Source: Rhodoferax sp.
GTDB taxonomy: Bacteria; Pseudomonadota; Gammaproteobacteria; Burkholderiales; Burkholderiaceae_C
NCBI RefSeq assembly: GCF_023700745.1
Contig: NZ_JAMPYG010000010.1
Span: 45,934 to 109,933, forward strand
Length of the DNA stretch: 64,000 bases
Reading direction: 5' to 3'
This document shows positions 29,528-34,373 of the stretch, one piece after another. The position numbers and the translations under genes were made by a program. Positions within the stretch are counted from its first letter, which is position 1; every line of letters begins with the position of its first letter. The notes beneath the pieces were generated by a model that did not search any database, was not told the DNA's origin, and saw only the letters and a list, made by a program, of their open reading frames with translations.

Positions 29528-31900
29528 CTATTCAACCCGGGTGATCGAAGCGGGCTTGAAGCCCAGATCGGCCAGCTTGCCCTTGCGCGCCCGGGCCGCG
29601 CGGGCGTTGTTGAGGCTGCGGATTTCCAGGGTCTCCTCACGCACCTTGCCGCCACGGCCCATGCCTTCAATGCGCACACTGCGGGTGTAGGCGGCCGCGC
29701 CAGCCAGCGTGTCCCTGGTTTCCAGGTCCATCAGCATCAGCCCCCGGCCGCCATTGGCCATGGCCTTGAGTTCGCTGATCTCAAAGGTCAAAATACGCCC
29801 GCCTGTGGACGCACAGGCAACATGGGTGGCTGGCGCGACCGCGATGGCGGCATTGGCCACCAAGGACGGCTGGCACAGGGTTTCGCCCTCGTTCACGGTG
29901 ACAAAGGCTTTGCCCGCCTTCTGGCGTGAAACCATGTTGGCCACGGTCGCGGTGAACCCGTAGGCCGCCGAACTGCTCAGCAACAATGTGGCCTCCATTG
30001 GCCCGGCAAAGTAGGACAGCAACTGGGTACCCGCCTCCAGCTCGATCAGGCTGGTGATCGGCTGGCCGTCGCCTCGGCCGCCAGGCAGCAGCGCCACCGC
30101 GACCGAATAGACGCGGCCATTGGCGCCAAAGGCCAGCAGGGTATCGACCGAGCGGCACTCAAATGCGCCATACAGCGCATCGCCCGCCTTGAAGTTGTAT
30201 TCGGGCGCCGCCGTGCCATTGAGCCGGTCACGCGCCCAGCCCTTTTGCGTCCTAACCCAGCCCTTTTGGCTCACCACCACGGTCACGGGCTCATCCACCA
30301 CCTTCACCTCAAGCACCACTTTTTTCTCGGCCTGGATCAGGGTGCGGCGGTCATCGGCAAAGGTTTTGGCGTCCACCTCGATTTCCTTGATCATCAGGCG
30401 GCGCAGCGCCGCCGGGTTGCCCAGAATTTCTTCCAGCTTCTGCTGTTCCTCACGCAGACCGGCCAGTTCCTGCTCGATCTTGATGGCCTCCAGCCGCGCC
30501 AACTGGCGCAGCCGGATTTCCAGAATGTCTTCGGCCTGCCGTTCCGAGAGATGGAAGCGTGCAATCAGAGCCGCCTTGGGCTCGTCGGCTTGGCGGATGA
30601 TGGCGATCACCTCGTCAATATTGAGCAGCACCAGCGCCCGGCCCTCCAGGATGTGAATGCGGTCCAGCACCTTGTTCAGACGGTGCCGCGTGCGCCGCTC
30701 GATGGTGGTCTGGCGGAACGCAATCCACTCGGTGACCATCTGGCGCAGCGACTTGAGCGTGGGCCGGCCGTCGAGCCCAATCATGGTCAGGTTGATCGGG
30801 CTGGAGGTTTCCAGGCTGGTGTGCGCCAGCAGCGTGTTGATGAGTTCCTGCTGGCCAATCTTGCTGGTTTTGGGCTCGCACACCAGGCGCACGGCGGCGT
30901 CCTTGCTGGACTCGTCACGCACGCCGTCCAGCACCGACAGCACGGTGGCCTTGAGCTGGTTTTGCTCCAGCGACAGGGCTTTTTTGCCGGCCTTGATCTT
31001 GGGGTTGGTCAGCTCTTCAATTTCTTCCAGCACACGCTGGGTGCTGACACCGGGCGGCAGCTCGGTGACCACCAGCTGCCACTGACCACGCGCCAGTTCC
31101 TCGATCTTCCAGCGCGCCCGGCATTTCAAGGAACCGCGACCACTGCGGTAAGCCTCGGCGATTTCCGCGGCGCTGCTGATGATCTGGCCACCGCCAGGAA
31201 AGTCCGGGCCTGGCAGCAAGGCAAACAATTCATCGTCCGGCAGGTTGGGCGTCCTGATCAGCGCCACGCAGGCATCGGCCACCTCGCGCAGGTTGTGGCT
31301 CGGGATCTCGGTGGCCAGACCCACGGCAATGCCGCTGGCGCCGTTGAGCAGGGCAAACGGCAGGCGCGCCGGCAACTGGTTGGGTTCTTCGGTGGAGCCG
31401 TCGTAGTTGGGTGAGAAGTCAACCGTGCCCTCGTCGATTTCGTCGAGCAGCAGGCTGGTGATTTTGGCCAGTCGCGCCTCGGTGTACCGCATGGCGGCAG
31501 CGCCGTCACCATCGCGACTGCCAAAGTTGCCCTGGCCGTCAATCAGCGGGTAGCGTTGCGAAAAGTCCTGCGCCATGCGCACCAGCGCGTCGTAGGCCGC
31601 GCTGTCGCCGTGCGGGTGGTAACGGCCCAGCACGTCCCCCACCACGCGCGCGCATTTGACCGGTTTGGCCCCGGTGTTGCCGTTGGCACCGCCAAAGCCC
31701 AGGCCCATGCGGCTCATGGCGTACAAAATGCGCCGCTGCACCGGTTTCTGGCCGTCACACACGTCTGGCAAGGCGCGTCCCTTGACCACGCTCAGGGCGT
31801 ATTCCAGGTAGGCCTGCTGGGCATAGGTAGCCAGGTTCAGCGCGTCGTCACCCTCGGGTTGGGACGGGGCCGGGGGGTTAATAATGAGTTGGTCAGTCAT
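29528..31900 (-). CDS. parC: DNA topoisomerase IV subunit A
   Basis: [83 protein letters not shown]. Confidence 0.95.
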
Positions 31901-31959
31901 GGCAAAACAGTTTCAAAAATTCAAAATTCAAGTAGCAATAGCGTTGCGTCAGGTAACCC

Positions 31960-32035
31960 GCGAGGCAGGCCCTGTGGGCGGCTTCCTCATACTGGAGTAC
32001 CAGAAATCGTCAGCCCCCCACAGGGCCTACCTCGC
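31960..32035. repeat. Nested palindrome unit A (24-bp stem arms, 28-nt loop)
   Basis: GCGAGGCAGGCCCTGTGGGCGGCT / AGCCCCCCACAGGGCCTACCTCGC; 22/24 complementary; loop contains CTCATACTGGAGTACCAGAAATCG. Confidence 0.75.
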
Positions 32036-32127
32036 TGGTCGCATTGGGGGTGCAAACCTGGTCAAACAATACACCGCTTGAATTCCGGTTTCCGGTTTTC
32101 AAACGTAAGTGAAGCACCCAACTATCA

Positions 32128-32203
32128 GCGCTGTGACTGGCTTGGGTGGTCACCGATTTCTGGTACCCCAGTATGAGGTGGCCGCCCAAGCCAGTCACGG
32201 CGC
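32128..32203. repeat. Nested palindrome unit B (26-bp stem arms, 24-nt loop), opposite orientation
   Basis: GCGCTGTGACTGGCTTGGGTGGTCAC / GTGGCCGCCCAAGCCAGTCACGGCGC; loop is the reverse complement of the unit A loop core (23/24). Confidence 0.75.
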
Positions 32204-32241
32204 AGCGCGCAACCAACCAATCTACAAAACCCAAAAATCCC

Positions 32242-32273
32242 TGGATTGCCACGTCGCTACGCTCCTCGCAATG
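32242..32273. repeat. TGGATTGCCACGTCGCTACGCTCCTCGCAATGAC-type dispersed palindromic repeat
   Basis: GATTGCC...TCGCAATGAC; shares TCATTGCGA with the repeats at 40671 and 40802. Confidence 0.5.
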
Positions 32274-32305
32274 ACAAATTTAGAGGCTGAGGAAATTTCG
32301 GATGC

Positions 32306-34276
32306 CTAAACATCAATCTCCACCGAATCCCCATGCAGTTCCATCAGCTCGCGCCGCGCCGCGGCTTCCCCCTTGCCCATCAGCTTGCTCATGAGTTCGG
32401 AAGTTTGCAGCACACTCTGGCTCCCCAGATGCACCGGCAACAAGCGGCGCGTGTCGGGGTTCAGCGTGGTGTCCCACAACTGCTCGGCATTCATTTCGCC
32501 CAAACCCTTGAAGCGACTGATGGTCCAGGCGCCTTCGCGCACGCCTTCCTTGCGCAGCTTGTCCAGGATCGCGGTGAGTTCACCTTCGTCGAGGGCATAG
32601 GCCTTGGACGCCGGCTTTTTGCCGCGCGCCGGCGCGTCCACACGAAACAGCGGTGGTCGGGCCACAAAGACATGGCCGGCGTCAATCAGCTTGGGAAAGT
32701 GCTTGAAAAACAAGGTCAGCAGCAGTACCTGGATGTGCGAGCCGTCGACGTCGGCATCACTCAGAATGCAAATCTTGCCGTAGCGCAGACCGCTTAGATC
32801 GGGGCTGTCATCCACGCCGTGCGGATCAACGCCAATGGCCACGGCAATGTCGTGGATTTCGTTATTGGCAAAGAGTCGGTCACGCTCGACCTCCCAAGTG
32901 TTCAGCACCTTGCCGCGCAGCGGCAACACCGCCTGGCTTTCCTTGTTGCGGCCCATCTTGGCGCTGCCGCCGGCCGAGTCGCCTTCGACCAGAAACACCT
33001 CGTTCTCGGCAATGTCGCGGCTCTCGCAGTCGGTGAGTTTGCCCGGCAACACCGCCACCCCCGAGCCCTTGCGCTTTTCGACCTTCTGGCCGGCTTTCTG
33101 GCGTGATTGCGCCGCTTTGATGGCGATTTCGGCCAGTTTCTTGCCGTATTCCACATTCTGGTTCAGCCACAGCTCCAGCGCTGGCCGGACAAAGTTGGAC
33201 ACCAGGCGCACCGCATCGCGCGAATTCAGGCGCTCCTTGATCTGGCCCTGAAACTGCGGGTCCAGCACCTTGGTGGACAGCACAAAACTGGCACGCGCAA
33301 ACACGTCGTCGGGCAGCAGCTTGACGCCCTTGGGCAGCAGCGAATGCAGTTCCACAAAACTCTTGACGGCGGTGTACAGGCCATCGCGCAGGCCCGACTC
33401 GTGGGTGCCGCCGGCCGGGGTCGGGATCAGGTTGACATAACTCTCGCGCACCGGCTGGCCGTCTTCGGTGAAGGCCACGCACCAGGCCGCGCCCTCACCT
33501 TCGGCAAAATTGTCGTTGTTGGCGTCGGCAAAACCCTCGCCTTCAAACAGCGGAATGACGGGTTCGCCGGTCAGGGTTTGGGTCAAATAATCACGCAGGC
33601 CGCCCTTGAACAGCCAGGTCTGGGTCTCCTTGTTCTTCTCCTGCACCAAAGTCACCGAAACACCCGGCATCAGCACCGCCTTGCTGCGCAGCAGGTGCTC
33701 CAGATGCGCCATCGGCCAGGTCAGGGACTCAAAATATTTGCCGTCGGGCCAGACCCGCACCGTGGTGCCTGATTTGCGGTCGCCCTCGCCGGCCTGGCGC
33801 ACGCTCAGGGGCTCGATCACGTCGCCACCGGCAAACACCAGGCGCGCCACCTGGCCTTCGCGGTAGGTCGTGGCCTCCAGTTTGAGCGACAGCGCATTGG
33901 TCACGCTCACACCCACGCCATGCAGGCCGCCGGAAAAGCTGTAGGCACCGCCCTGGCCCTTGTCAAACTTGCCACCGGCGTGCAACTGGGTAAACACCAG
34001 TTCGATCACCGGAGCGTGCTCGGTGGGGTGCATGCCGAACGGAATGCCGCGGCCATCGTCTTCCACCGTGATCGAGCCATCGGCGTGCACAATGGTCTTG
34101 ATCTTTTTGCCGTGCCCGGCAAGCGCTTCGTCGGCCGCGTTGTCGAGCACTTCCTGGATGATGTGCATCGGGCTGTCGGTGCGGGTGTACATGCCCGGAC
34201 GCTGTTTGACCGGCTCCAGCCCTTTCAGGACACGGATCGAGTTTTCGGAATATTCGGGATTGGGTTTGCTTGCCAT
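32306..34276 (-). CDS. parE: DNA topoisomerase IV subunit B
   Basis: GLEPVKQRPGMYTRTDSPMHIIQEVLDNAADEALAGHG; FLVEGDSAGGSAKMGRNKESQAVLPLRGKVLNTWEVE. Confidence 0.95.
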   Translation of the reverse strand: MASKPNPEYSENSIRVLKGLEPVKQRPGMYTRTDSPMHIIQEVLDNAADEALAGHGKKIKTIVHADGSITVEDDGRGIPFGMHPTEHAPVIELVFTQLHAGGKFDKGQGGAYSFSGGLHGVGVSVTNALSLKLEATTYREGQVARLVFAGGDVIEPLSVRQAGEGDRKSGTTVRVWPDGKYFESLTWPMAHLEHLLRSKAVLMPGVSVTLVQEKNKETQTWLFKGGLRDYLTQTLTGEPVIPLFEGEGFADANNDNFAEGEGAAWCVAFTEDGQPVRESYVNLIPTPAGGTHESGLRDGLYTAVKSFVELHSLLPKGVKLLPDDVFARASFVLSTKVLDPQFQGQIKERLNSRDAVRLVSNFVRPALELWLNQNVEYGKKLAEIAIKAAQSRQKAGQKVEKRKGSGVAVLPGKLTDCESRDIAENEVFLVEGDSAGGSAKMGRNKESQAVLPLRGKVLNTWEVERDRLFANNEIHDIAVAIGVDPHGVDDSPDLSGLRYGKICILSDADVDGSHIQVLLLTLFFKHFPKLIDAGHVFVARPPLFRVDAPARGKKPASKAYALDEGELTAILDKLRKEGVREGAWTISRFKGLGEMNAEQLWDTTLNPDTRRLLPVHLGSQSVLQTSELMSKLMGKGEAAARRELMELHGDSVEIDV

Positions 34277-34373
34277 GGCGCGCATTGTATGAATACCCAG
34301 TTTTCAAAGGCACTCCACAACCCGTGGCTTACGAACTTTTGAACTTGCGCCGCATAATTGGCAGCACACGTTC

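Follow-up and report, generated by a model that had tools for sequence, protein, structure and literature searches.

Two palindromes between parE and parC of a Rhodoferax belong to an undescribed family of repeated hairpins with a fixed internal loop and free arms

Palindromic repeats of bacteria are usually recognized by a shared sequence. REP palindromes are short, with a stem of 5-13 bp (PMC3733652). As REPINs and BIMEs they occur with a RAYT (TnpAREP) as dispersed, mostly extragenic palindromes in inverted pairs. TnpAREP recognizes the single-stranded REP and leaves the complementary strand unbound; in E. coli, the stem has to be irregular (PMC8266576). The name TIRtron is used for ends of the GGGGWSAS type that surround RAYT-like genes, and the Rickettsia palindromic elements (RPE), which carry a CGTC tag, are found in frame in genes (PMC3733652). 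The Betaproteobacterial repeat element (BRE) is ~90 bp long, G+C-rich, mostly intergenic and occurs in Rhodoferax and Polaromonas, among others (PMC3110155). Here we describe two palindromes in a 64,000-nucleotide stretch of contig NZ_JAMPYG010000010.1 of Rhodoferax sp. (the window) that stand near some of these systems by kind.

The palindromes lie in the gap between parE and parC (Table 1). As a first-pass annotation of the same DNA had described, unit A (31960-32035) and the oppositely oriented unit B (32128-32203) form near-perfect hairpins, and their loops share one 24-mer that differs at a single R position (31986-32009 on the plus strand and 32154-32177 on the minus strand), a match found in 0 shuffles of the window. 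The strand reading CGATTT...TATGAG, here called the Y strand, is the minus strand in unit A and the plus strand in unit B. All three departures from pairing in the unit B stem are G.U on the plus strand, again as annotated, and those of unit A are mostly G.U on the minus strand. Both units fold at -54 to -67 kcal/mol (z -7.8 to -10.1), which 0 shuffles equalled. The stems had been called unrelated. Their sequences do differ, but GGGYGGY adjoins the loop in both, and a 46-nt stretch of the two units is 83% complementary. Further repeat-like sequence (CTGGATTGCCACGTCGC...CTCGCAATGAC) is located beside unit B at 32240-32276 and is also present in the relative L090. Rfam gave sub-threshold microRNA matches only in the window and no gathering-threshold match in 11 unit loci, and a literature search by loop sequence found no description.

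Table 1. Hairpin pair and neighbouring genes in the window. Units A and B are both in the R1 training set, so their R1 bits are not independent evidence.
Feature	Position	Strand	Evidence
Unit A hairpin	31957..32038	-	R1 match 88.8 bits; fold z -9.6 on - strand
Unit A outer stem arm, 26 nt, 3' arm of Y strand	31960..31985	-	sequence
Unit A internal loop 3' side TATGAG, invariant core, Y at first base	31986..31991	-	
Unit A apical mini-hairpin CTGG-TACT-CCAG, variable across family	31992..32003	-	
Unit A internal loop 5' side CGATTT, invariant core	32004..32009	-	278/303 scan matches
Unit A inner stem arm, 5' arm of Y strand	32010..32035	-	sequence
Spacer between units A and B, 92 nt	32036..32127	.	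sequence
Unit B hairpin	32125..32206	+	R1 match 91.5 bits; fold z -10.1
Unit B inner stem arm, 5' arm	32128..32153	+	
Unit B internal loop 5' side CGATTT	32154..32159	+	
Unit B apical mini-hairpin CTGG-TACC-CCAG	32160..32171	+	
Unit B internal loop 3' side TATGAG	32172..32177	+	
Unit B outer stem arm, 3' arm	32178..32203	+	
parC, downstream neighbour	29528..31900	-	TIGR01062 parC_Gneg, 715 bits, over cut-off
parE, upstream neighbour	32306..34285	-	TIGR01055 parE_Gneg, 701 bits, slightly under 723 cut-off

Units A and B are part of a hitherto undescribed repeat family of hairpins in which a 12-base internal loop is fixed and the arms are free. A search with the loop alone found copies throughout the genome and the genus, flanked by long locus-specific inverted repeats. 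This bears out the annotation's view of the element as the reverse of an ordinary REP, its copies being defined by the loop and its stems by the locus. The host genome has 12 matches to the 24-base loop, often arranged in inverted pairs ~150 bp apart, and the loop is present in 24 of 61 relatives, all 24 from the same genus; named genomes carrying it belong to Rhodoferax, Polaromonas, Limnohabitans and Curvibacter. As hairpins, 17 dispersed copies were counted in the host genome, and more than 200 were read across Rhodoferax, Polaromonas, Limnohabitans and relatives. A family-wide covariance-model search matched 31 of 141 sampled genera (about a fifth), in one bacterial family. Since this model was built from these copies, the scores of training members are not independent; those of apical variants and distant genera are.

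In the distant copies, both helices vary, and what is retained is the 6x6 internal loop that separates them, 5'-CGAUUU/YAUGAG-3'. Throughout 40 of the matched regions, which were read, CGATTT/YATGAG was kept and the apical hairpin was replaced by many others, several of these replacements being compensatory (CTG/CAG, GTG/CAC, CGC/GCG, GGC/GCC). Copies with other tips (CTGGGCGTCTGACAG and CGCAAAGCGAAGCGCG) were found in the host genome by the covariance model. The first-pass annotation had taken the whole 24-base loop as the conserved part. This loop is indeed shared, but only its internal-loop portion is fixed; likewise, the CTGG mini-hairpin is present in units A and B, but other hairpins replace CTGG-TACY-CCAG in relatives. 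The pattern CGATTT-N6-36-TATGAG had 18 matches in the host genome, 15 of them units by tip and position, compared to 0 for a reversed control. Outside the host's family, the loop pattern had 0 matches in a 399-genome sample of the order, and model R2, with its reduced sensitivity, had 0 among 369 class-wide genomes. A phage or plasmid origin was rejected, with 0 matches in viral contigs, plasmids and phages. One contig labelled Singulisphaera (L118) carries a Limnohabitans-type unit and is probably misbinned.

Evolution has preserved the folded single strand of these units rather than their sequence, and selection acts on the Y strand, in place. The stem is 24-31 bp long and free in sequence. 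Over the first 30 arm positions of 232 copies, typically 22-27 Watson-Crick pairs are formed, compared to ~11 after swapping arms between copies. An ungapped alignment of 77 diverse copies has 93.6% of its cells paired and double-sided changes in 26 of 26 stem pairs. Covariation reached 0.845 in these 77 units (0.187 shuffled, 0.12-0.15 in slid structures) and 0.922 in 120 distinct rows (~0.19 in shuffles), with slid controls at 0.12-0.17 over both sets. Because the family is visible only through its structure, ordinary repeat searches would miss it.

The remaining departures from pairing are strand-specific. Read on the Y strand, 190 units contain 309 G.U and 35 A.C cells, about 9:1, and the 109 units with other apical hairpins contain 195 and 41; such cells share ancestry and are thus not independent, and we judge the asymmetry to be far beyond what relatedness alone would give. 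For pair units between tandem neighbours, the G.U:A.C counts were 73:6 with Y in sense and 76:8 with Y in antisense orientation, and antisense singles gave 32:2. The bias is unchanged by the direction of the neighbours, and therefore the Y strand is not maintained simply by read-through from adjacent genes.

At orthologous sites, matched by both flanks (85-92% identity, 77 comparisons), we counted 122 double Watson-Crick changes, 81 exchanges between G.U and Watson-Crick pairs and 5 changes involving A.C. This paired drift indicates that stems are maintained in place. The annotation had suggested that the element picks up or creates its flanking inverted repeats, for example by hairpin-templated or template-switch insertion. 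This is not supported: orthologous stems are inherited and drift by paired substitutions, and the copies of one Polaromonas genome visibly derive from one pair plus spacer, pair and homologous spacer having been copied together. An extension of the same idea is that one arm is copied onto the other, by hairpin-templated repair or template switching, and that complementarity is thereby maintained with little selection. Transversion-type pairs, which make up half or more of the double changes in the orthologue set (59/122 and 86/114), and neighbouring pairs that change as blocks (L019 versus L173; L156 versus L160) would agree with such copying. However, it explains neither the 9:1 strand bias nor the invariance of the internal loop, and 31 'same GU' cells persist in place among orthologues, so that we regard it as improbable as the main cause. 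Arm-to-arm copying may still act as a helper: a G.U intermediate does not explain the transversion-type pairs, to which about half of the double changes belong. Blocks of adjacent paired changes were unusually frequent among the orthologues, a hint in the same direction.

The arrangement of the units bears on whether the Y strand works as RNA or as single-stranded DNA (ssDNA). All 54 isolated pairs are yY, with the Y strands pointing outward, compared to 0 isolated Yy pairs; 72 units are single. According to the gene calls of our own simple scorer, 47 pairs lie in tandem, 10 in convergent and 4 in divergent gaps, while unit-free gaps are 120 tandem, 18 convergent and 65 divergent. RNA is the main rival to ssDNA and nearly as likely, with a sizeable minority chance of being correct. 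The Y hairpin would then form the folded exit for transcripts running out of the repeat in either direction and would define or protect RNA 3' ends, for example at a Rho-type termination boundary, while a protein occupies the internal loop. Tolerance of G.U, avoidance of A.C and in-place compensation are typical of RNA. Moreover, pairs avoid divergent gaps (4/61 versus 65/203 unit-free, p=2.4e-5), stop codons are ~15-90 nt away from the units, the sequence 3' of the stem on Y is rich in A/C and poor in T/G whatever the orientation, unlike unit-free gaps, and the yY layout places a Y hairpin at the exit side for either direction of transcription. Against this stands the strand bias, which is equally strong in units antisense to both neighbours; in addition, Y is antisense to the coding strand in several copies inside genes. 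A Y RNA would therefore need antisense transcription. No T-run follows the hairpin, as looked for in a test for intrinsic terminators, and the Y 3' flank is T-poor. The equal bias of antisense and sense units fits better to a strand-specific reader of ssDNA than to mRNA read-through. An orientation relative to the replication strand looked strong in one complete genome and vanished in the wider set (23 versus 21).

Some copies are found in frame within genes, namely uvrA, a formate dehydrogenase gene and a helicase gene; the copy in uvrA falls within a ~63-residue stretch that is missing from a solved UvrA. In the in-frame units of L392, L394, L396 and L153 (formate dehydrogenase, DUF3418 helicase and uvrA-type genes) the X strand codes, and two of them encode the identical peptide PGSSCGEPKSSPG. 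RPE are likewise palindromic and in frame, but their sequence is another one, and they are not defined by an internal loop. BRE was found by >70% identity, the Bordetella repeat being the reference, and often forms tandem arrays; as described, it would differ from the present family in these points.

The first-pass annotation had also proposed to look for a linked RAYT. None was found beside window-type pairs, but in Limnohabitans there is a link between units and RAYT/TIRYT-type ends. Most singles of this genus lie in GGGGTCAGATCAACATTAATTT-unit-AAATTAATGTTGATCTGACCCC dimers (GGGGTCAGATCAACATTAATTT and its complement). The same dimers are mostly 130-146 bp long with the unit and mostly 48-86 bp without it. 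Each Limnohabitans-type genome searched has a single Y1_Tnp gene, bordered by this same AAATTAATGTTGATCTGACCCC or a near variant of it, except for one genome with no such gene. The Y1_Tnp genes of this analysis bear GGGGTCAG ends, which fit GGGGWSAS as in TIRYT/TIRtron repeats (PMC3733652). Ends of this type, shared with the tyrosine transposase gene, surround most Limnohabitans singles and one host copy (L212, with Rhodoferax-type ends), but not the window pair. GGGGTCAGA ends are missing from window-type pairs, and target duplications were not observed. TTGGAATCTGACCCC occurs next to Rhodoferax units at ~7 independent loci, which by our own estimate is not clearly above the intergenic background. 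The hairpin unit itself does not belong to the TIRs described for TIRYT/TIRtron repeats and occurs without those ends in Rhodoferax and Polaromonas. Two further observations concern these elements: a different Y1_Tnp gene (G016, at L291:1425) is located near a perfect palindrome, GGTGCCCCGTTGGGGC, possibly its own REP, and a TIR dimer at L070:4058 has a bare-palindrome tip (AATCACAGGGGCTAAGCTTAGCCCCTGTGATT), apparently a unit minus its loop.

Could the family be an ordinary GTAG- or CGTC-type REP/BIME whose stem has drifted? The intergenic location, inverted dimers, intragenic copies and strand specificity would all agree with this (PMC3733652, PMC8266576), and inverted dimers predominate as in GTAG REPs and REPINs. 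But the flank profile of 226 units contains no fixed tetranucleotide at the stem foot, neither GTAG nor CGTC being dominant; the sequence-free stems are 2-5x longer than the published ones; the variable stem is combined with an invariant 6x6 internal loop; and a Y1_Tnp (RAYT) gene flanked by units was absent from the 26 genomes with matches that were inspected. The ssDNA hairpin of REPINs and BIMEs is recognized strand-specifically, whereas the counterpart in our units is a strand-specific covariation bias only. We consider a drifted REP very unlikely. Given the missing tag, the stem length and the lack of a flanked RAYT, we do not file the family as a REP, although it stands near REPINs and TIR dimers.

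The parE-parC gap itself varies among relatives. In the closest one it measures 78 nt and had offered itself as an empty site, which we rejected: the first half of arm A is still present, so that the gap is a deletion and not a virgin site. In L090 (5420-7430), the gap contains a BglII-type restriction endonuclease gene and an N6/N4 methylase gene within the unit A loop. What remains on the left is a hybrid of the outer arm of A, the loop and an outer arm of B type, while a repeat of CCAGAAATCG stands on the right. This insert would suit a recombination site at whose loop incoming DNA recombines, but it is a single case, and other neighbouring units span ordinary chromosomal genes, which makes such a role highly improbable. 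An autonomous element with a gene between units was rejected, too: between units we found only ordinary chromosomal genes, this one restriction-modification pair and one unidentified small ORF. At L115:3016-4096, a 120-aa gene between two inverted units resembles a BrnA-type antitoxin by eye.

The explanation we favour, with slightly less than even confidence, is a mobile palindrome similar to REPINs, with a single-strand-specific protein reading its internal loop, most likely on ssDNA. The working part would be one folded strand, Y, with a free stem of 24-31 bp, the fixed 5'-CGAUUU/YAUGAG-3' and a free apical hairpin, and a strand-specific nucleic-acid-binding protein would read the internal loop. 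The repeat would move, or have moved, as a non-autonomous element through an ssDNA hairpin. Its copies settle downstream of genes or in frame within them. ssDNA together with an HUH-type or similar protein is preferred because it explains the independence of orientation. For Limnohabitans, the resident Y1 (HUH) transposase is the candidate for this enzyme; its gene shares terminal repeats with unit-bearing elements. In-place compensation in stationary copies counts against this explanation and suggests that each copy is used, beyond the need of a parasite. So do the absence of units beside Y1_Tnp genes in the 26 inspected genomes, the missing GGGGTCAGA ends of window-type pairs, the lack of observed target duplications and the vanished replication-strand bias. 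More tentatively, the units may represent a new class of folded nucleic-acid signal: a family-wide protein would read the 12-nt CGAUUU/YAUGAG in tens of scattered hairpins per genome, each copy being kept functional in place by selection on one strand.

The family supplies a clean strand-specific covariation signal, and its 200+ natural variants pin down the bases that a hairpin-binding protein could read. It also connects long hairpin repeats with TIRYT-type HUH transposases, a link that is testable with a single purified protein.
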